Source: an uncultured Eubacteriales bacterium (GTDB lineage: Bacteria > Bacillota > Clostridia > Oscillospirales > Oscillospiraceae). From it: 43,164 nucleotides of DNA. The translations under genes and the position numbers were made by a program. The notes beneath the pieces were generated by a model, which saw only the letters and a program-made list of their open reading frames with translations, ran no database searches and had not been told where the DNA came from. The stretch covers positions 1 to 43,164 of the forward strand of contig ONGJ01000010.1 of NCBI GenBank assembly GCA_900317375.1. The letters are read 5' to 3'. Below, piece by piece: positions 1,571 to 14,589 of the stretch (the first letter of the stretch is position 1; every line of letters begins with the position of its first letter).

Positions 1571-3283
1571 TTATTGCTCAGTACCAGTTTTTTCGGTGAT
1601 AATAGGAATAATCGTCGTCGTCATCGTCGTTGTCGTTGTCGACATCATACTGGGAGAACATGTCGCTGCTGTAGTCGTCGCTGTCCTGAGACTCTGTATC
1701 GCCGGTATCGTACTGATCCTGCATGTCGTTCTGATCATACTGATCCTGCATATCGTTCTGATCATACTGATCCTGCATATCGTTCTGATCATACTGATCC
1801 TGCATATCGTTCTGTGATCATACTGATCCTGCATATCGTTCTGATCATACTGGTTCTGCATGTCGTTCTGATCATACTGGTTCTGCATGTCGTTCTGATC
1901 ATACTGATCCTGCATATCGTTCTGATCATACTGGTTCTGCATATCGTTCTGATCGTACTGGTTCTGCATATCGTTCTGATCGTACTGGTTCTGCATGTTA
2001 TTCTGATCATACTGACTCAGCATGTCGGTGGTGCTGTCGTAGCCGTACTGACTCAGCATGGCCTCATACTGCCATGCTATGTAGGCATCGTCATCGTAAT
2101 ATTGATACCAGGCATCCCAGACATTGAATCCGCAGTAGGGGCAGTAATCCCCGTAGCAGATGCTGCTGCAGACCGGGCAGATCCACGAACCGTCGTAGAA
2201 CCATGTATAGAAGAACGCATCCGGGTCCTCAAGCACATAATCGCTGTACACATAGAGCCCGGCCTGGGTCGTGCAGACCGCACGGCTGCCGCCGCGGAAA
2301 ATGCAGTAGACATTCCAGCCGCTCATCGCCGTCGATACGTTGTCGATACGCAGCGTTGTGCTGCTGCCGCCGCTGACGGGAGAGGTCGGATACAGCGCGG
2401 CAAAGCTATTCAGAGAGTATTCCGTGCCTTCGGGAGCGACGAAAACCCACTCCAGAGAGGTATAGGCATTGGCATTGGCGACAAACAGGGCGGTGTCACC
2501 GGGTGAAAGGAGCTCCGAAGTCGGGTTCTTTGTCACGGCCAGAAAACCGGCAGGGAAGGGGACTGCTGCCGCAAAGGTATCGGACGGTGCCATGTTCCCG
2601 GTAAAGACCGCATAGCTGTAGGTGAAAACATTGACCTGCTTGGCATCGTCCGCCTTGAACCATTCAAAATGGGTGCCGCTCTTCTGGCTGTTTTCGAAGA
2701 CTCTGTCTCCGATGCAGCGGAAGTCATCCTCTGTGATCGCCTTTCCGTCCGGACCCATGTAGCTGCTGCTTGTGCCGGTGACGTGCTCGGTGGCCAGAAC
2801 ACCGTAGTCCAGCACGCCGGATTTCAGGAACACGGCGCTCTTGTCCAGATAGGCCTCATCGGCGGACACCGGATAGTAGCTTGTGACAAGATAGTACCAG
2901 CTGTCATTCTCCGCGCTGTACCGGGTTTCGGCGCTGTCGGTCAGAATGTTGGCGAAGGTCTCGCCCTCGGCGACGTTCAGTCTGCCGGGCTCCAGAGCAC
3001 GGCCGTCTTCACTTATCTCCCAGACTTTTGCCGCAGGTATGCAGTTGGCACCCTGAACCGAGGCAGCCAGAAGCTCCAGCCGTCCGTTGTGATCCAGATC
3101 CGTCACCGCGTAAAACCAGGTTCCGTCGTTCTCACTCTGCCGGCAGGAATCGAAGCTTTTGAAAATCAGATCGATCTGTGCCAGGGCGGTGTTTTCAGAT
3201 GCCCTGCTTGGAACGGCGAAACCCGTAGCGCAGAGAGATGCCAGAAGGATAAGCATCAGGGTGAAAGAACAGAGTTTTTTCAT
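1571..3283 (-). CDS. Secreted zinc-ribbon protein with 9-residue tandem repeats, frameshifted in the repeat array
   Basis: Starts at the ATG at 3283 with GGAGG 6-7 bases upstream; 570 residues as read. Residues 1-30 are a signal peptide (MKKLCSFTLMLILLASLC...). The middle contains a zinc ribbon near residues 367-385 (CPVC then CYGDYCPYC) preceding a run of QYDQNDMQN/D repeats encoded at 1711-2009. Unit 4 of the array (1792-1820) carries an extra dinucleotide, so the rest is read in another frame (Ile-Cys-Arg-Ile-rich) to a stop at 1571. Without the extra 2 bp the protein keeps the repeat and ends in an acidic tail (DNDNDDDDDD then YHRKNWY) with a stop at 1578, giving about 567 residues. That second version is surely the ancestral frame. 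No family was recognised and the function is unknown; a calcium-binding or surface role would be a guess. Confidence 0.75.
   Translation of the reverse strand: MKKLCSFTLMLILLASLCATGFAVPSRASENTALAQIDLIFKSFDSCRQSENDGTWFYAVTDLDHNGRLELLAASVQGANCIPAAKVWEISEDGRALEPGRLNVAEGETFANILTDSAETRYSAENDSWYYLVTSYYPVSADEAYLDKSAVFLKSGVLDYGVLATEHVTGTSSSYMGPDGKAITEDDFRCIGDRVFENSQKSGTHFEWFKADDAKQVNVFTYSYAVFTGNMAPSDTFAAAVPFPAGFLAVTKNPTSELLSPGDTALFVANANAYTSLEWVFVAPEGTEYSLNSFAALYPTSPVSGGSSTTLRIDNVSTAMSGWNVYCIFRGGSRAVCTTQAGLYVYSDYVLEDPDAFFYTWFYDGSWICPVCSSICYGDYCPYCGFNVWDAWYQYYDDDAYIAWQYEAMLSQYGYDSTTDMLSQYDQNNMQNQYDQNDMQNQYDQNDMQNQYDQNDMQDQYDQNDMQNQYDQNDMQNQYDQNDMQDQYDHRTICRISMIRTICRISMIRTICRISMIRTTCRISTIPAIQSLRTATTTAATCSPSMMSTTTTTMTTTIIPIITEKTGTEQ
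1711..2009 (-). repeat. Tandem array of eleven 27-bp units encoding QYDQNDMQN/D
   Basis: Eleven contiguous units of 27 bp plus 2 extra bases (299 bp in all), differing at only a few positions (mainly GAT/AAC giving D or N). Each unit encodes nine residues, so whole-unit slippage would keep the frame. The extra TG (plus strand, 1813-1816) in unit 4 does not. Confidence 0.95.
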
Positions 3284-3316
3284 AAGCGCCTCCTTGAATA
3301 TATAATATACATCATT

Positions 3317-3345
3317 ATTATGAGTAAAGATACCGGAGAAGTCAA
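3317..3345 (-). promoter_or_regulatory. Sigma-A promoter of the zinc-ribbon repeat gene
   Basis: Minus strand: -35 TTGACT (3340-3345), 17-bp spacer, -10 CATAAT (3317-3322), 34 bp before the start codon. The shared palindromic box lies 5 bp upstream of the -35. Confidence 0.75.
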
Positions 3346-3350
3346 GGGCG

Positions 3351-3367
3351 GGTTTCAGAATGAAAAC
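3351..3367 (-). promoter_or_regulatory. Palindromic operator-like box upstream of the -35 (copy B)
   Basis: Minus-strand sense GTTTTC-N5-GAAACC, with one base degenerate compared with copies A and C, exactly 5 bp upstream of TTGACT. The flanking GAT before the left arm is shared with copy A. Confidence 0.55.
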
Positions 3368-3397
3368 ATCAGGATGGGGTAAACTGTCATCCTCCTC

Positions 3398-3426
3398 TTG
3401 CTCTCGGCGGCAGAATGGCCTATAAT
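3398..3426 (+). promoter_or_regulatory. Promoter of the papain-family peptidase gene
   Basis: TTGCTC (3398-3403), 17-bp spacer, TATAAT (3421-3426). Because the -10 ends 37 bp before the ATG at 3464, any upstream in-frame start is untranscribed. It diverges from the promoter at 3317-3345. Confidence 0.7.
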
Positions 3427-3463
3427 CAGATATATCAATCTTTTCGAAAGGAAAGGACAGAAA

Positions 3464-5590
3464 ATGATCAGAAAACTCGTTTGCAGGATTCTTCTTCCGG
3501 TTCTGCTGCTTGCGCTCCTGCCGGGCCGTCCGGCATTTGCGGAGGCTGCCGCCGGAGAATCGGATGCCCTGGACTATCTCGGTCACGAACTGGAGGCCTC
3601 CGCGGACCATCTGATGAAGACAGGGGAGGACGTGGATGACATCTATACTGAATTGAAGTGGACTTCCGTGGCCGATACCTTCCCCGCAAAGTTTGACCTT
3701 CGGGACCGCGGGACGGTAACGCCGGTCCGCTCACAGAGCCCCTGGGGCACCTGCTGGAGCTTTGCGACTATCGCCGCAAGTGAGAACAGCATTCTCAATT
3801 CCCTCGGTCTGACGACGGATTCCTATCGTGAGAAGTACGGGGAAGAGCTGGACCTGTCCGAAAAGCATCTTGCCTGGTTTACCACCAAGGCGCTTCCGGC
3901 GCTTCAGGACTATCCTGAAGGGGAATATCCCTATGAGGCCTCACAGGCGGGAGAGGGCCTTCATTTTCTGGAAGGAACGGATATCGAGCCGCTGAATACC
4001 GGCGGAAATTATTTCCTGTCCTCTGCGAGCCTTGCCTCCGGCATCGGTATCCTCAAGGAAAAGTATGCCCCCTATGTCAACAGCGAGGGAAACGCCGAAA
4101 AGAGCGGGGACTGGAGTCTTCCGGAGGAAGACCGCTTTGCCGTCAGCTTCGAGCTGAAAAATGCCAACATGCTCCCGTCACCTGCCTCCTTTGACGCCGA
4201 GGGCAGCTACGTTTACCGCCCCGAGGCCACCGAGGCCATCAAGTCCGAGCTTCTGGCCGGCCGGGCAGTCGGCATCAGCTTCAAGGCAGACAAGTCCATG
4301 CCCGAGAAGACCCCCGAAGAGAAACGGGAAATGCTGGAAAAGGATCTGACAGATGTCACCGTGGCCACGGAAGAGGAAAAGGCCAGATATATTGACGTCC
4401 GTGCCGGCATTGTCGATACGGCAGATCTCTCTGAGGACGAACTGCGCGATCTCATCCGTCTGCGCCTGCGCATCAACGATATGCCGGAGGACAGCTATGA
4501 CCTTGCCGCCTTTGACCGCAATCAGCTGGTGACCGTTCTGATGAGCGGCGCCTTCGGCAAAAGCTATGATGAGATCGTCGAGTATGAAAACCAGGAACCG
4601 TATATGACCTTTATCGGCTCGGATCCGGTGATCTATGCCCAGTATACTTTCGAGCCTGTCAGCTCGAATCATGCGGTTACGGTCGTCGGCTGGGATGATA
4701 CCTTCCCGGCGGACAGCTGGCCGGAGGACCGTAGGCCCCCCGCCGACGGCGTATGGATCGTGAAGAACAGCTGGGATACCGACTGGGGCAATGAGGGCTA
4801 TTTCCTGCTCTCCTATTATGATATGTCCATGAATGCGATCGGCTCCTTCGAATATGTCACGACGGAGGAAAGCCGGCAGCTGGACTATCTGAACATTCTC
4901 AATTACGACAATATGCCTGCCGAGATCATCAGCTCCACGCTCTTTGACAGCCCGGTTTACGCCGCCAACCTCTTTACCGTTCAGGAAGACAGCGTGCTGG
5001 AATATATTTCCGCCATGACCGGCGATCTGAACACGGCGGTCACCGCCTCTGTCTATCTCCTGAATCCGGATGCGAAAGAGCCGACGGACGGTATTCTGCT
5101 CCATACCGTTACCGAGACCTTCCGCTTCGCCGGATATCACCGTCTGGCTTTGAATGACAATCTGCTGCTGCCGGCGGGAAGCCGGATTGCAGTCGTCGTT
5201 CTGGAGAGCGTTCCCGTCGAGGACGGCACACGCTATGCCCTCATCAATACCGGCAGCCTGAATGAAGCCGGCGCCGAAGCCTACAATGCGCTCTGTCAGA
5301 ATGAAGGAAAGAAGGTCAAACGCTATGCCAGGGGCATCGTCAACCCCGGCGAGAGCTTTGTAAGCTTCACATCCGGAGCGTGGACAGACTGGTACGATGC
5401 GGTCGCATCCTTCCAGAACAGGGGAAACAATGCCTATGTTGCCTATGACAATCTCCCGATCAAAGCCTACGTCTATCCCTGGTCACAGGTGGAAAAGATT
5501 CATGATCTGTCCAACCGGGTTCCTGCTCCCGGCGGCGAGGCTGCTGTCTGCCCGGAGGACGGATACACGCTTCTGGATGTTGCCGGCTGA
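3464..5590 (+). CDS. Secreted papain-family (C1A) cysteine peptidase with C-terminal lectin-like region
   Basis: 708 residues from the ATG at 3464, which has AAAGGA upstream. Residues 1-26 are a signal peptide ending AFA. The mature papain domain begins near residue 73 (FPAKFDLRD). The oxyanion Gln91 and catalytic Cys97 lie in QSPWGTCWSF, the catalytic His403 in SSNHAVTVVGW, and Asn435 in VKNSWDTDWG; an insertion of about 150 residues separates the Cys and His parts. After about 480 the sequence matches the lectin-like domain often found behind bacterial C1A peptidases. There is no LPXTG motif or C-terminal membrane anchor, so it is probably released or held by the lectin-like part. The downstream neighbour is a double-glycine-leader protein with its own promoter. 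The peptidase call is firm; substrates are unknown. Confidence 0.9.
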   Translation: MIRKLVCRILLPVLLLALLPGRPAFAEAAAGESDALDYLGHELEASADHLMKTGEDVDDIYTELKWTSVADTFPAKFDLRDRGTVTPVRSQSPWGTCWSFATIAASENSILNSLGLTTDSYREKYGEELDLSEKHLAWFTTKALPALQDYPEGEYPYEASQAGEGLHFLEGTDIEPLNTGGNYFLSSASLASGIGILKEKYAPYVNSEGNAEKSGDWSLPEEDRFAVSFELKNANMLPSPASFDAEGSYVYRPEATEAIKSELLAGRAVGISFKADKSMPEKTPEEKREMLEKDLTDVTVATEEEKARYIDVRAGIVDTADLSEDELRDLIRLRLRINDMPEDSYDLAAFDRNQLVTVLMSGAFGKSYDEIVEYENQEPYMTFIGSDPVIYAQYTFEPVSSNHAVTVVGWDDTFPADSWPEDRRPPADGVWIVKNSWDTDWGNEGYFLLSYYDMSMNAIGSFEYVTTEESRQLDYLNILNYDNMPAEIISSTLFDSPVYAANLFTVQEDSVLEYISAMTGDLNTAVTASVYLLNPDAKEPTDGILLHTVTETFRFAGYHRLALNDNLLLPAGSRIAVVVLESVPVEDGTRYALINTGSLNEAGAEAYNALCQNEGKKVKRYARGIVNPGESFVSFTSGAWTDWYDAVASFQNRGNNAYVAYDNLPIKAYVYPWSQVEKIHDLSNRVPAPGGEAAVCPEDGYTLLDVAG

Positions 5591-5644: not shown

Positions 5645-5673
5645 TTGTTGTGTGACATTACATGTGGTACAAT
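5645..5673 (+). promoter_or_regulatory. Promoter of the double-glycine-leader protein
   Basis: TTGTTG (5645-5650), 17-bp spacer, TACAAT (5668-5673), followed 26 bp later by AGGAGG and the ATG at 5713. The gene therefore has its own transcript. Confidence 0.65.
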
Positions 5674-5712
5674 ACGGCCAAGATCCAAAATCAATAACAG
5701 GAGGATGCAAAA

Positions 5713-6048
5713 ATGAGCGAACTGAAGAAAAACGGACTTGAACAGCTGAGCGACGAGACCCTCAGCCAGGTCGCCGGCGGCATGTCCCGCAATCTGGCTG
5801 CGGCTTATGATGTCATGGCCAACAAATACGGTGTCGGCGAAGAGCGCCGCAGACGCCTGGAGGCTGCGGGCTACAACTACTGGGAAGTCCAGCACCTCGT
5901 CAACGGCCTTGCCTATGGCTATGACGCGGTTGCCAAGGACGTGATCGCCGGCAAGTACGGCAACAACCAGGTTCGTATCAACGCCCTTGCTGCGGCCGGC
6001 TACAATGCCAGCCTCGTTCAGGACATCGTAAACAATATGCTGGCGTAA
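5713..6048 (+). CDS. Double-glycine-leader peptide with two Cpl-7-like repeats
   Basis: 111 residues, ATG with AGGAGG at good spacing. Residues 1-23 look like a classical double-glycine export leader: LEQLSDETLSQVAGG, with Gly22-Gly23 as the expected cut. The remaining 88 residues contain two related repeats, about 29-66 and 71-110, each shaped V-M/I-A-x-K-Y-G-x-x-x-x-R-x-x-x-L-x-A-A-G-Y-N-x-x-x-V-Q-x-x-V-N. This pattern is that of the CW_7 (Cpl-7) cell-wall-binding repeat of phage lysozymes. The predicted product is thus a small secreted muropeptide-binding protein, exported by a C39-type ABC transporter not present in this window. There are no Cys residues and no modification enzyme beside it. 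A bacteriocin or signal role is possible but only inferred. Confidence 0.7.
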   Translation: MSELKKNGLEQLSDETLSQVAGGMSRNLAAAYDVMANKYGVGEERRRRLEAAGYNYWEVQHLVNGLAYGYDAVAKDVIAGKYGNNQVRINALAAAGYNASLVQDIVNNMLA

Positions 6049-6095
6049 GCCCGATTGGCTCTTTAAAAGGGCCGTTCGGACACAGCGCAGATCAG

Positions 6096-6126
6096 GACCG
6101 GGAGGGGAGACTCGCCCGGTCTTTTT
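6096..6126 (+). terminator. Terminator of the double-glycine-leader gene
   Basis: Stem GACCGGG/CCCGGTC (6096-6102 with 6115-6121), 12-nt loop, then TTTTT at 6122-6126; 48 bp after the stop codon. Confidence 0.8.
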
Positions 6127-6168
6127 CTTGTCCGGGCAGGCGTTGCCCGGCCTGACAAGAAAAAACAC

Positions 6169-8665: not shown

Positions 8666-9157
8666 ATGATTCAGGACTATATCGACGCCGGGCGCATTGT
8701 GAATACCCATGGCGTACGCGGAGAAGTGAAAATTGAGGTCTGGCTGGACAGTCCCGAAATGCTGGCGGCCTGCAGGCGGGTTTTCATCGGCGATGCCGAG
8801 CGGAGGATCCTTGCCTCCCGCGTGCATCAGGGCTTTTTGATCGCTGCGCTTGAGGGCATCGGCGATATGAACGCCGCCATGGCCCTGAAAGGCAGGACCG
8901 TCCGTATTTACCGCGGGGATGCCGGACTCCCGGAGGGGGGCTACTTCCTGCAGGATCTGCTGGGGGCCTCTGTCAGAAATGAGGACGGCACACCTGTCGG
9001 AACGCTGAGCGACATTCTCGAGCGTCCCGCGTCCAACATCTATGTCGTCACGGATGCCGGCGGGAGAGAACATCTGATCCCGGCGGTGCCGGCGTTTGTC
9101 CTTTCCTGTGACCCTGTTGCGGGCGAAATGACCGTCCGCCTCATCGGAGGCATGTAA
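8666..9157 (+). CDS. rimM: Ribosome maturation factor RimM
   Basis: 163 residues. The N-terminal RimM beta-barrel begins AGRIVNTHGVRGEVKIEVWLDSPE and the C-terminal PRC-barrel-like domain contains GGYFLQDLLGASVRNEDGTPVGTL and YVVTDAGGREHLIPAVPAFV. RimM helps late maturation of the 30S head and binds S19. The stop overlaps the trmD start by one base (TAATG), and the trmD ribosome site GGAGG lies inside rimM. Confidence 0.96.
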   Translation: MIQDYIDAGRIVNTHGVRGEVKIEVWLDSPEMLAACRRVFIGDAERRILASRVHQGFLIAALEGIGDMNAAMALKGRTVRIYRGDAGLPEGGYFLQDLLGASVRNEDGTPVGTLSDILERPASNIYVVTDAGGREHLIPAVPAFVLSCDPVAGEMTVRLIGGM

Positions 9158-10455
9158 TGCGTATCGACATTCTTACACTTTTTCCGGACAATATGGACCG
9201 CATGCTGCATGAAAGCATACTGGGCCGCGCCTGCCGGAAGGGCCTGCTGGATCTGCACTGCGTTCAGATCCGCGACTATACCGAAAACCGTCAGAACCAG
9301 GTGGACGACTATCCCTACGGCGGAGGCTTCGGCTGCATCATGATGGCCCAGCCGCTCAAAAGCTGTGTCGAGGCGGTGCTGGCTAGGGGTGAGATTCCGC
9401 GGGAGAAAACCTGCGTGATCGCCATGACACCGCAGGGGACCCCCTTCCGGCAGGAGACCGCCCGCCGTCTGCAGCGCGATTACGACCGCCTTGTTCTGGT
9501 CTGCGGCCACTATGAGGGGATGGACGAGCGCTTTCTTGAGGCCTGCGTGGATGAAGAGCTCTCTCTGGGCGACTTTGTCCTTACCGGCGGCGAAATCGCC
9601 GCCATGGCCGTCTGTGATTCGGTCTGTCGTCTGGTTCCGGGCGTCCTGTCTGACCCCGAGTGCTATATCGGCGAAAGCCACTGGGACGGCCTGCTCGAAT
9701 ACCCCCAGTACACCCGCCCCGAGGTGTGGGAGGGCAGGGAAGTGCCCGAGGTGCTCCTATCCGGCGACCATGAAAAGATTGCCCGCTGGCGCCGGGCGCA
9801 GCAGCTGCGCCGCACGTGCGAACGCCGGCCGGACCTGTTTGCCGCCTTCCGTGCCGAAAACGACGAGGACCGCCGCCTGATCGAGGAACTGAGAAAACAG
9901 GAGGGACGTCCCCGCATCACGAAGGAGCTTGCCTGCCGTCCGGCGAAAGAGGAGGATCTCCCGGTGATTCTTTCAATCGTCGACGAGGCGCGTGCCTTTC
10001 TGAAAGAAAAGCGGATAGATCAGTGGCAGGGCGCCTATCCCGAAGAAAGGGACTTTCTGCGCGACATGCTGCGCGGCGAATGTCATGTGGTCCTGCACGG
10101 CGATGAGATCACAGCCGTTTTTACGGTTTCCTCGGCGCACGAGCCGGAGTATGACGATATCCGCGACGGCAAGTGGACGCCCGATCTGGAGGCCTGTGTC
10201 CTGCACCGCTGCGCGGTCCGGGCCCGCTGGGCTGGCACGGGCATGTCAGACAGAATGCTGCGCTTTGCCGAGAAATGCAGCCTGGAAAACGGACGGCGCT
10301 GCCTGCGCACCGACACCCATCCGAAGAACAGGAGCATGCTGCGCCTGTTGAGTGATAACGGCTACCGCTACCGCGGCAACATCGACATCCACTGTGAGCC
10401 CGGCCACGAAAGCGTCCGCCGCTGTTACGAGAAAATCCTGAAAACCCACGCCTGA
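9157..10455 (+). CDS. trmD: tRNA (guanine37-N1)-methyltransferase TrmD fused to a GNAT acetyltransferase domain
   Basis: 432 residues against about 240-250 for ordinary TrmD. Residues 1-about 235 are a complete SPOUT methyltransferase: MRIDILTLFPDN, the trefoil-knot SAM site (CGHYEGMDER, GDFVLTGGEIAAM) and the C-terminal tRNA-binding part (QYTRPEVWEGREVPEVLLSGDHEKIARWRRAQ). After a charged linker (about 236-255) a GNAT domain follows: ACRPAKEEDLPVILSIVDEAR, the acetyl-CoA loop AVRARWAGTGMSDRML, and DTHPKNRSMLRLLSDNGY. TrmD puts m1G at position 37 to prevent frameshifting. The GNAT substrate is unknown; it may simply share the transcript or act on translation components. No stop or frameshift separates the two domains. 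Confidence 0.93.
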   Translation: MRIDILTLFPDNMDRMLHESILGRACRKGLLDLHCVQIRDYTENRQNQVDDYPYGGGFGCIMMAQPLKSCVEAVLARGEIPREKTCVIAMTPQGTPFRQETARRLQRDYDRLVLVCGHYEGMDERFLEACVDEELSLGDFVLTGGEIAAMAVCDSVCRLVPGVLSDPECYIGESHWDGLLEYPQYTRPEVWEGREVPEVLLSGDHEKIARWRRAQQLRRTCERRPDLFAAFRAENDEDRRLIEELRKQEGRPRITKELACRPAKEEDLPVILSIVDEARAFLKEKRIDQWQGAYPEERDFLRDMLRGECHVVLHGDEITAVFTVSSAHEPEYDDIRDGKWTPDLEACVLHRCAVRARWAGTGMSDRMLRFAEKCSLENGRRCLRTDTHPKNRSMLRLLSDNGYRYRGNIDIHCEPGHESVRRCYEKILKTHA

Positions 10456-10469
10456 AAGGAGACTGCCCC

Positions 10470-10643
10470 ATGAAACGTACCCAGGTTTTTACCTTTATCA
10501 TGGCCATTGTCTGGACCCTGATCGGCGGTTTTGTCATCTTCTACGCATCCCGCGGCGGCCTGAACGGAAAAGGTCTCCTGCTGATCATGCTGGCCGTCGT
10601 GGCGATCGCCCTGAACTGGATGCGATGGATTCGAACGCGATAA
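10470..10643 (+). CDS. Small two-helix membrane protein, unknown function
   Basis: 57 residues: ATG at 10470 with AAAGGAG 8 bases upstream, stop TAA at 10641-10643. The sequence starts MKRTQVFTFIMAIVWTLIGG and has two hydrophobic segments (about 7-25 and 36-50) separated by a short ASRGGLNGKG loop, ending in basic NWMRWIRTR. It lies 14 bp after trmD, and its last 19 bp overlap the start of rsmA in another frame, suggesting translational coupling. No family was recognised. Confidence 0.7.
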   Translation: MKRTQVFTFIMAIVWTLIGGFVIFYASRGGLNGKGLLLIMLAVVAIALNWMRWIRTR

Positions 10644-11500
10644 GCCGTCTGACGGACCCGGTCTTTATCCGCAGCCTGCTCGAGCGTCACGGCTTTCGTT
10701 TTTCCAAAGCGCTGGGACAGAACTTCCTGACGGACGCCTCCGTGCCGGCGAGGATTGCCGATGCGCTCTGTGCGGATGAAAGCTGTGCCGTACTCGAAGT
10801 CGGGCCCGGGATCGGCTGCCTGACCGCCGAGCTGGCAGAGCGTGCCGGCGCTGTCCTTTCGGTGGAACTGGACCGACGGCTCGAACCCGTTCTGAGCGAG
10901 ACGCTGGCCCCGTTTTCCAACACCGGGCTTCTGTTCGGTGATATCATGAAGCAGGACCTTGCCATCCTCGCGGACGGGCGGCTGACCGCGCCGACCCGTC
11001 TCTTCTGTGCCAATCTCCCCTACAACATCACGACCCCGGTCCTGACAAAGGTTCTGGAGTCGGGCGTCTTTGCCCGCAGCGTCGTCATGATCCAGCGCGA
11101 GGTGGCTGAGCGCCTCTGCGCCGCCCCGGGAGGGAAGGACTACGGCGCCTTCAGTCTCCTGGTCCAGTGGCATGCCGAGCCGGAGATGCTCTTCACTGTG
11201 CCGCCCCATGCCTTCGTGCCTCAGCCGAAGGTCACCTCGGCGGTCGTCCGTCTGACGCAGAGAAAAGAGCCGCCGTTTCCCGTAAAGGACGAGGCGCTCC
11301 TGTTCCGCACAGTCCGCGCGGCCTTTGGCCAAAGGCGCAAGACCCTTCTGAATGCCCTGACAGCCGGTTTTCCCGAGCTGGGAAGGGACGGCTGCCGCTC
11401 AGCTGCCGACAAAAGCGGCATTGATCCCGGCTGCCGCGGTGAGGTGCTGGGCCTGGCCGAATTTGCGCTTCTTTCCGATGCCATCGCCGATTATCTGTGA
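10625..11500 (+). CDS. rsmA: 16S rRNA dimethyladenosine transferase RsmA (KsgA)
   Basis: 291 residues. The Rossmann-fold methyltransferase has KALGQNFLTD, SAM motif EVGPGIGCLTAELAERA, acidic SVELDRRL, and the catalytic NLPYNITTPVL. RsmA dimethylates A1518 and A1519 in helix 45 of 16S rRNA as a late checkpoint in 30S assembly. The start overlaps the small membrane protein gene by 19 bp. Length is normal. No terminator was seen directly downstream before the ppdK promoter. Confidence 0.97.
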   Translation: MDSNAISRLTDPVFIRSLLERHGFRFSKALGQNFLTDASVPARIADALCADESCAVLEVGPGIGCLTAELAERAGAVLSVELDRRLEPVLSETLAPFSNTGLLFGDIMKQDLAILADGRLTAPTRLFCANLPYNITTPVLTKVLESGVFARSVVMIQREVAERLCAAPGGKDYGAFSLLVQWHAEPEMLFTVPPHAFVPQPKVTSAVVRLTQRKEPPFPVKDEALLFRTVRAAFGQRRKTLLNALTAGFPELGRDGCRSAADKSGIDPGCRGEVLGLAEFALLSDAIADYL

Positions 11501-11715
11501 AAGAATTCGCAAACTTTTAAAACAGAACATATTTTCAGGGGATGAACGGGTATATCTTGGTTAAAATGCAAGATTCAACAACGAATCTGGTGTTTTGGAG
11601 ACCTGCAATTTGTAAGGAAAATGCATTGCATTTTTCACCCTTTTTGTGTTACATTAAGCCTTGGCTTTTGAGTATCATTTTTATTGAATTTTGAAATGAG
11701 GAAAGGACTTTCACA
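11501..11715 (+). promoter_or_regulatory. AT-rich ppdK upstream region with promoter
   Basis: A notably AT-rich 215-bp gap. The best promoter is TTGCAT (11626-11631), 18-bp spacer, TACATT (11650-11655). A perfect 17-bp palindrome AAAATGCATTGCATTTT (11618-11634) covers the -35, and a half copy AAAATGCA lies at 11563-11570. The ribosome site is AAAGGA before the ATG at 11716. Confidence 0.55.
11618..11634. promoter_or_regulatory. Palindrome over the ppdK -35, candidate operator
   Basis: AAAATGCA-T-TGCATTTT, a perfect inverted repeat around one central base, overlapping the TTGCAT -35. A repressor bound here would occlude RNA polymerase. The regulator is unknown. Confidence 0.4.

Positions 11716-14589
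<2,874 letters not shown>

Follow-up and report, generated by a model that had tools for sequence, protein, structure and literature searches.

At positions 5713 to 6048 of the window, by which we mean the whole 43,164-nucleotide stretch of DNA analyzed here, lies a gene for a small protein that consists of a double-glycine (GG) leader and two CW_7 repeats and nothing more. The explanation that we consider best, with a probability of about 0.6, is that the protein belongs to a co-regulated set of non-catalytic wall-binding miniproteins that are exported by C39 transporters and act at the producer's own envelope. In this model, an NHLM-type ABC exporter with a C39 peptidase would very probably cut the 23-residue leader after Gly23 and export the remainder, a product of about 88 residues. 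This product would comprise two three-helix CW_7 repeats with no catalytic domain and would, again very probably, bind GlcNAc-MurNAc-dipeptide in peptidoglycan through two sites. A shared promoter element would drive its production alongside that of other GG-leader proteins, above all LysM miniproteins, and together with these miniproteins the product may well form a coat bound to the producer's own envelope, act there as a spacer or modulate wall enzymes. That the protein is cut, exported, bound to the wall and co-regulated, and especially that it acts at the producer's own wall, we infer from features that are apparent in the sequence, namely the leader, the repeats, their conserved ligand residues, the exporter linkage of relatives and the shared element. 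The features of the gene are as follows.

5648..5673, plus strand: promoter-like element TTG-TGTGACA-N5-TGTGnTACAAT, of the extended -10 form, 39 nt before the ATG
5699..5704, plus strand: ribosome-binding site AGGAGG (by-eye reading)
5713..6048, plus strand: GG-CW_7 coding sequence, ATG start, 111 amino acids
5713..5781, plus strand: double-glycine leader, residues 1-23, with predicted C39 cleavage after Gly23
5803..5907, plus strand: CW_7 repeat 1, with Arg45 and Gln60 (47.1 bits)
5923..6042, plus strand: CW_7 repeat 2, with Arg88 and Gln103 (52.1 bits)
about 6094..6130, plus strand: terminator-like hairpin followed by a T-run, which closes the single-gene unit (RNA fold)

The interval 5713-6048 is coding sequence only, with the promoter-like element (5648-5673) and the hairpin (about 6094-6130) outside it. 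The hairpin has a predicted folding energy of -25.8 kcal/mol (z -2.28) and is not among the terminators listed by a pattern scan.

An earlier note, made from the sequence alone, had read the protein as a GG leader joined to two CW_7 repeats, and both halves of this reading are borne out by profile search and by homologues. The Pfam CW_7 model (PF08230) matches the window protein in two stretches at 90.5 bits (E 5.5e-26), well above the cut-off of 25, and each repeat exceeds this cut-off by itself. CW_7 is the only domain that Pfam finds, with no catalytic domain among its matches, and the PHROGs matches of the protein are endolysins, reached via the CW_7 repeats. The mature part is predicted to have 88 residues, a mass of 9,656 Da (9.66 kDa), a charge of +0.6 and no cysteine; across 18 GG-CW_7 sequences the charge of the mature part ranges from -1.5 to +2.5. 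The nearest solved structures are CW_7 chains of the Cpl-7 lysozyme, 5i8l (E 7.2e-17) and 4cvd (E 2.1e-5). Mutation of the CW_7 Arg and Gln of Cpl-7 is described as weakening muropeptide binding (PMC5705596). These contact residues are present in both repeats of the window protein (Arg45 and Gln60, Arg88 and Gln103) and are maintained among relatives: Arg45 is kept in 18 and Gln60 in all of 19 aligned GG-CW_7 sequences, and Arg88 and Gln103 in all 18 aligned sequences that possess the second repeat.

Substrates of C39 exporters carry GG at positions -2 and -1 and hydrophobic residues at -4, -7 and -12. The window leader, 23 residues ending LSDETLSQVAGG, has this form, and all 19 aligned sequences, which come from 18 loci and include the window, keep the GG leader, with L17, G22 and G23 invariant and positions -12, -7 and -4 hydrophobic throughout. 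TIGR01847, a generic bacteriocin-leader model, scores the window leader at 12.7 and 13.8 bits, below its cut-off of 15.7, so it is the conservation and position of the leader and its linkage to exporters, not this model, that underlie our assignment; a paralogue in the same genome, 45% identical to the window protein, passes it at 16.8 bits. For the window protein NCBIfam returned only leader-type matches, all of them sub-threshold, among them a Nif11 leader model at 13.8 bits (cut-off 32.3), and listed no NHLP leader. The protein differs from NHLP/Nif11 RiPP precursors in that no such leader was matched above cut-off and the mature part is conserved, not hypervariable.

The GG-CW_7 family that we followed comprises 19 loci in gut or rumen genomes of Oscillospiraceae type, the window and the paralogue included (L009, L014-L024, L042-L047 and the window); the hosts are rumen or gut Ruminococcaceae, Oscillospiraceae, Eubacteriales, Clostridiales and one member of the Lachnospiraceae. 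Most relatives are 59-73% identical to the window protein. Among the variants, the paralogue (L009, on contig C68 of the 3.08-Mb genome G000 to which the window belongs) has a degenerate first repeat of 13.9 bits, L047 has a single repeat, L019 and L020 carry tandem duplicates, and L024 is truncated at a contig end. Seven close pairs of relatives gave dN/dS values of 0.16-0.34 (purpose-written Nei-Gojobori script; more divergent pairs approach saturation, among them that of window and L042 with pN/pS 0.93), values that indicate a gene under purifying selection. A scan of genome contigs yielded 11 loci. Of 300 sampled genomes of the same family, 11 have a CW_7 match and seven the GG-leader form (G000, G004, G084, G109, G174, G264 and G292); the CW_7 proteins of G041, G145, G258 and G282 have no GG leader, and those of G145 and G282 are endolysins. 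In the phylum sample, 7 of 398 genomes match at E 1e-8. One of the seven is the window's own genome; five of the other matches read as lysin-type proteins (G391, G480, G493, G522 and G635), a sixth is weak (G446, locus L164, where the pattern did not recover a CW_7 protein), and among the matches of this sample that could be read no GG-CW_7 form was seen beyond the window's own genome.

That CW_7 is a module of phage lysins raises two alternatives. One is that the gene is the degraded tail of an endolysin in which a GG arose by chance. CW_7 matches occur in 75 phage records, and the 15 listed are indeed endolysin or lysis-enzyme genes. However, a pattern that recovers 17 of the 19 true members detected no GG leader among the best 80 of at least 512 viral CW_7 loci (a miss or two is possible), and 79 of these 80 have open frames of at least 200 amino acids. 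The recurrence of one architecture at 19 loci, the purifying selection, the unchanging leader residues and the exporter linkage also stand against decay or chance, and we rejected this reading as hardly credible. The other is that CW_7 and LysM modules occupy the wall sites of endolysins and lysozyme and so protect the producer from lysis from without. In phage endolysins, among them those of G145, G282 and the best 80 viral loci, CW_7 serves as the binding module; the muropeptide-contact residues are kept, and the cargo set described below mirrors the binding modules of lysins (LysM, SH3-like) but has none of their catalytic parts, all of which would suit such a decoy. Against it, PADLOC gave no anti-phage defence match for the GG-CW_7 protein, nor for a LysM companion, STAS or membrane-fusion protein, no defence genes were recognised nearby, and the dN/dS values show no arms-race diversification; we therefore regard a shield as unlikely. 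Two PADLOC models, mad3 and mad8, did match the exporter, in its ATPase region, a result that we took as generic.

Linkage to C39 exporters, a co-occurrence that the earlier note had proposed to check, is found at 12 of the 19 loci, where an NHLM-type C39 pair, ABC1 and ABC2, lies within about 6.5 kb (L014, L015, L016, L019-L023, L042 and L044-L046); a short membrane-fusion protein is also present at 11 of these, and the ABC1 frame of L014 is broken. The remaining seven loci, one of which is the truncated L024, show no exporter. The NCBIfam NHLM_micro ABC1 model gave 931.2 bits for L015 and 925.3 for L046 (cut-off 853.3) and the ABC2 model 732.1 bits for L046 (cut-off 709.4); the 138-residue membrane-fusion protein of L015 scored 22.8 bits with the HlyD-like model TIGR03794 (cut-off 156.2). 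Genes between GG-CW_7 and the exporter, which were partly profile-scanned, read as STAS, GG proteins, an HTH regulator, a secreted protein and the membrane-fusion protein. The arrangement is illustrated by locus L044, a single co-directional run (coordinates of that locus).

9079-9408: GG-CW_7
9494-9697: first GG-LysM
9751-10014: second GG-LysM
10246-10545: STAS
10586-11002: short membrane-fusion protein
11018-13210: ABC1, with ABC2 next

Neither GG-CW_7 gene of the window's genome adjoins an exporter. This genome has four C39 exporters, three of them above the NHLM cut-off, and those on contigs C69 (929.6 bits with the NHLM ABC1 model) and C83 (930.1 bits) are the likeliest candidates for export of the window protein; identity to the linked ABC1 proteins is 79-84% for C69, 76-82% for C83, 62-64% for C48 and 41-44% for C101. 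Among the 300 genomes, 34 have an NHLM ABC1 above cut-off, including all seven with GG-CW_7 (p 1.3e-7, ignoring kinship, the seven genomes representing two genera). Two surroundings in the same genome may be recorded here. Before the C69 exporter stand an alanine racemase-like gene (by eye) and a response regulator (L012:10917-12985, minus strand). Beside the C101 exporter (L011:7596-9938, minus strand) are a GG peptide that reads as Nif11-like and a 644-residue gene that possibly encodes a radical-SAM enzyme, both by eye, an ordinary RiPP-type arrangement.

The promoter-like element connects the window gene with further GG-leader genes. In the form TGTGACA-N5-TGTGCTACAAT it was first spotted upstream of aligned GG-LysM copies of the same genome and then before the window gene, where TGTGACA-N5-TGTGnTACAAT matches at 5651-5673 with no mismatch; no other site occurs in the window with three mismatches or fewer (0.04 expected from shuffles), and a consensus sigma-70 scan did not list it. 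At up to two mismatches the window's genome has 24 sites, against none for a reversed-pattern control, and 21 of the 24 stand before GG-leader genes (15 called by pattern and six by eye, one of the latter an interrupted LysM copy). Two others precede other genes (L212 and L214) and one runs into a contig end (L206). The 21 comprise eight sites before LysM genes (one interrupted), one before a CW_7 gene (the window gene, L203), one before a gene of a 149-residue GG family and eleven before other short GG genes; they are not independent, six standing before near-identical GG-LysM copies and two before one gene. LysM exceeds its cut-off in seven GG proteins of this genome. About half of the sites precede GG proteins in which no wall-binding domain was recognised, and the commonest recognisable cargo behind the element is LysM, CW_7 or SH3-like. 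In a second species of the same genus (G174), all eight sites at up to one mismatch precede GG-leader genes: three LysM genes and one CW_7 gene above Pfam cut-offs, one SH3_3 gene below its cut-off, one SH3-like by eye, one of the 149-residue kind and one without a match.

Two observations on these short GG genes stand apart. Six of the own-genome GG-LysM copies (L050, L051, L052, L057, L058 and L059) are scattered on contigs C136, C160, C38, C50, C114 and C130, and their DNA, with some 100 upstream bases counted in, is 88-94% identical. In L052 and L057 the sequence breaks off at codon 77 and gives way to a foreign tail; L055, a seventh copy, has an inner stop. The copies look like a recently dispersed gene cassette. 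At L199, L205, L215, L216, L217, L219 and L220, several short element-linked GG proteins have paired cysteines and are zinc-ribbon-like; the window gene is not one of these.

Across the family, the element stands at up to four mismatches before 12 of 20 GG-CW_7 genes (19 loci), compared with 0.8% of 3,000 random 130-base stretches, and it exceeds four mismatches before the other eight, which include L009, L016, L021, L023, L042 and L046. Before the exporter genes tested it is absent or poor (more than four mismatches). At up to one mismatch, 36 of the 300 genomes have at least one match, and the reversed pattern gave one match each in nine genomes. Only one of 15 such loci inspected downstream precedes a GG gene (L239, GG-CW_7), so isolated matches in other genomes are mostly background. 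Since G004, G084 and G292 carry GG-CW_7 yet have no site at up to one mismatch, and eight of 20 GG-CW_7 genes are without the element, it appears to mark a regulon of this genus and not of the whole family, its function being surmised from its position before GG genes. A LytTR regulator, expected as the binder from the 12-base TGTG repeat, was rejected: none of the four response regulators tested has a LytTR match, and three have a Trans_reg_C match.

The neighbours of GG-CW_7 genes recur in part. GG-LysM genes lie nearby at 10 of the 19 loci (LysM above cut-off in those scanned), and an exporter is present in all nine genomes whose LysM match spans the leader, among the matches listed (in G156 and G224 the span was judged by match position only). 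Genes of M15 D-Ala-D-Ala dipeptidase type lie near GG-CW_7 at four loci (Pfam on L016 only).

L016:4903-5604: M15-type gene
L019:4722-5255: M15-type gene
L020:5145-5804: M15-type gene
L046:7141-7800: M15-type gene
1571-3283 of the window, minus strand: Sec-type secreted protein, possible partner (BLAST to proteins near GG-CW_7)

The protein at 1571-3283 has no Pfam match and is 36-37% identical over about 370-380 residues to secreted proteins at L018, L023 and L046; it may be a partner of GG-CW_7. Its region (1571-3610, minus strand) has QYDQNDMQ-type repeats near the end, which run on in another frame (ORF 1578-1805, minus strand) as if frame shifts had occurred inside the repeats. The upstream neighbour of the window gene (3464-5590, plus strand) encodes a secreted C1 peptidase with a Lectin_like domain, which in the neighbour-cluster table is not common to other GG-CW_7 loci. 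A third GG-leader family of 143-149 residues (L016:6803-7234 and L021:6781-7212, both minus strand; L213; L256) has no Pfam match where scanned and resembles a stretch of a 938-residue secreted protein at L046.

Partner-switch genes, SpoIIE phosphatase or STAS, occur near 7 of the 19 loci, with SpoIIE-type phosphatases near L009, L044, L045 and L046 and STAS proteins near L014, L015, L023, L044 and L045 (Pfam on five, BLAST cluster for the rest). Response regulators lie near some loci, and the paralogue L009 starts within the end of a HAMP-SpoIIE phosphatase gene. Such neighbours would suit a signal or sensor ligand, a secreted module that captures muropeptides or reports the state of the wall to a receptor. 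However, the regulators could equally well control the export set, and the neighbour clusters revealed no receptor family common to the loci; we think a signalling role quite improbable.

The earlier note had listed a bacteriocin-like factor, a sensor ligand and an adhesin as possible roles. A wall-targeted antagonist would bind the peptidoglycan of others and block wall synthesis or recruit killing partners. Class II bacteriocins usually take the GG leader and C39 route, the generic bacteriocin-leader model fits the paralogue, and one GG protein of the set has a weak Bacteriocin_IIc match in its leader. The bacteriocin option is nevertheless weakened because inspection of neighbour clusters common to at least three loci recognised no immunity-like protein, the sequence is conserved rather than hypervariable, and the folded product of 88 residues is near-neutral and has no catalytic or pore-forming part; we judge it rather improbable. 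Inspection of shared neighbour clusters and gene starts recognised no peptide-modifying enzyme either. Among the listed roles, the surface or adhesin-like one fits best. The exporter linkage, the LysM companions and the shared promoter element go beyond the earlier note. Its further statement that no such class had been described held in the open-access literature, most subscription papers lying outside, where we found no description of CW_7 joined with a double-glycine leader or of GG-LysM export.

The preferred reading, action at the producer's own envelope, can be taken a tentative step further. Possibly a single element drives dozens of scattered GG genes for single peptidoglycan-binding modules, and these CW_7, LysM and SH3-like modules, exported by NHLM transporters, form a removable coat that controls whether lysins, lysozyme and autolysins can reach the producer wall. 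The exporter in question has long been assumed to serve modified peptides, and annotation routinely assigns NHLM exporters and GG leaders to bacteriocin or RiPP machinery; the modules linked to the exporter here are folded, unmodified and wall-binding, and have a promoter element in common. The proteins of the set are small, soluble and easily produced. Some "bacteriocin export" of gut Clostridia may thus be surface decoration.

Several known systems can be compared with GG-CW_7. The CW_7 region of the Cpl-7 endolysin (PF08230; 5i8l, 4cvd) likewise has two repeats of the same fold family, and its mutation-tested Arg and Gln (PMC5705596) are kept; in contrast to Cpl-7, GG-CW_7 has no catalytic domain, a GG leader replaces the N-terminal enzyme, and the gene is cellular, lies beside exporters in relatives and encodes a near-neutral product. 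The NHLM/NHLP export system (TIGR03796, TIGR03797, TIGR03794) is matched by an ABC1 with C39 peptidase and an ABC2 above curated cut-offs. The NHLM exporter has been tied to hypervariable modified peptides (PMC2887384), whereas the cargo here is a conserved folded wall-binding domain with a leader of neither NHLP nor Nif11 type, and the membrane-fusion protein, of about 140 residues, falls far below the TIGR03794 cut-off. What is new is the linkage of a conserved, folded, Cys-free cargo to an NHLM exporter, together with the promoter-like element. Class II bacteriocins are short cationic mature peptides with an immunity gene; GG-CW_7 shares their leader type and export route and differs in size, charge, folded wall-binding domain and lack of a recognised immunity gene. 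The small GG-motif proteins EbfG1-4 of Synechococcus elongatus and their C39 peptidase transporter PteB are described as having a non-antimicrobial surface or biofilm role (PMC4997328). They belong to another phylum, the description drawn on here reports no wall-binding domain, and the likeness is one of description only; as described, they set a precedent for GG proteins that serve at the surface instead of killing.
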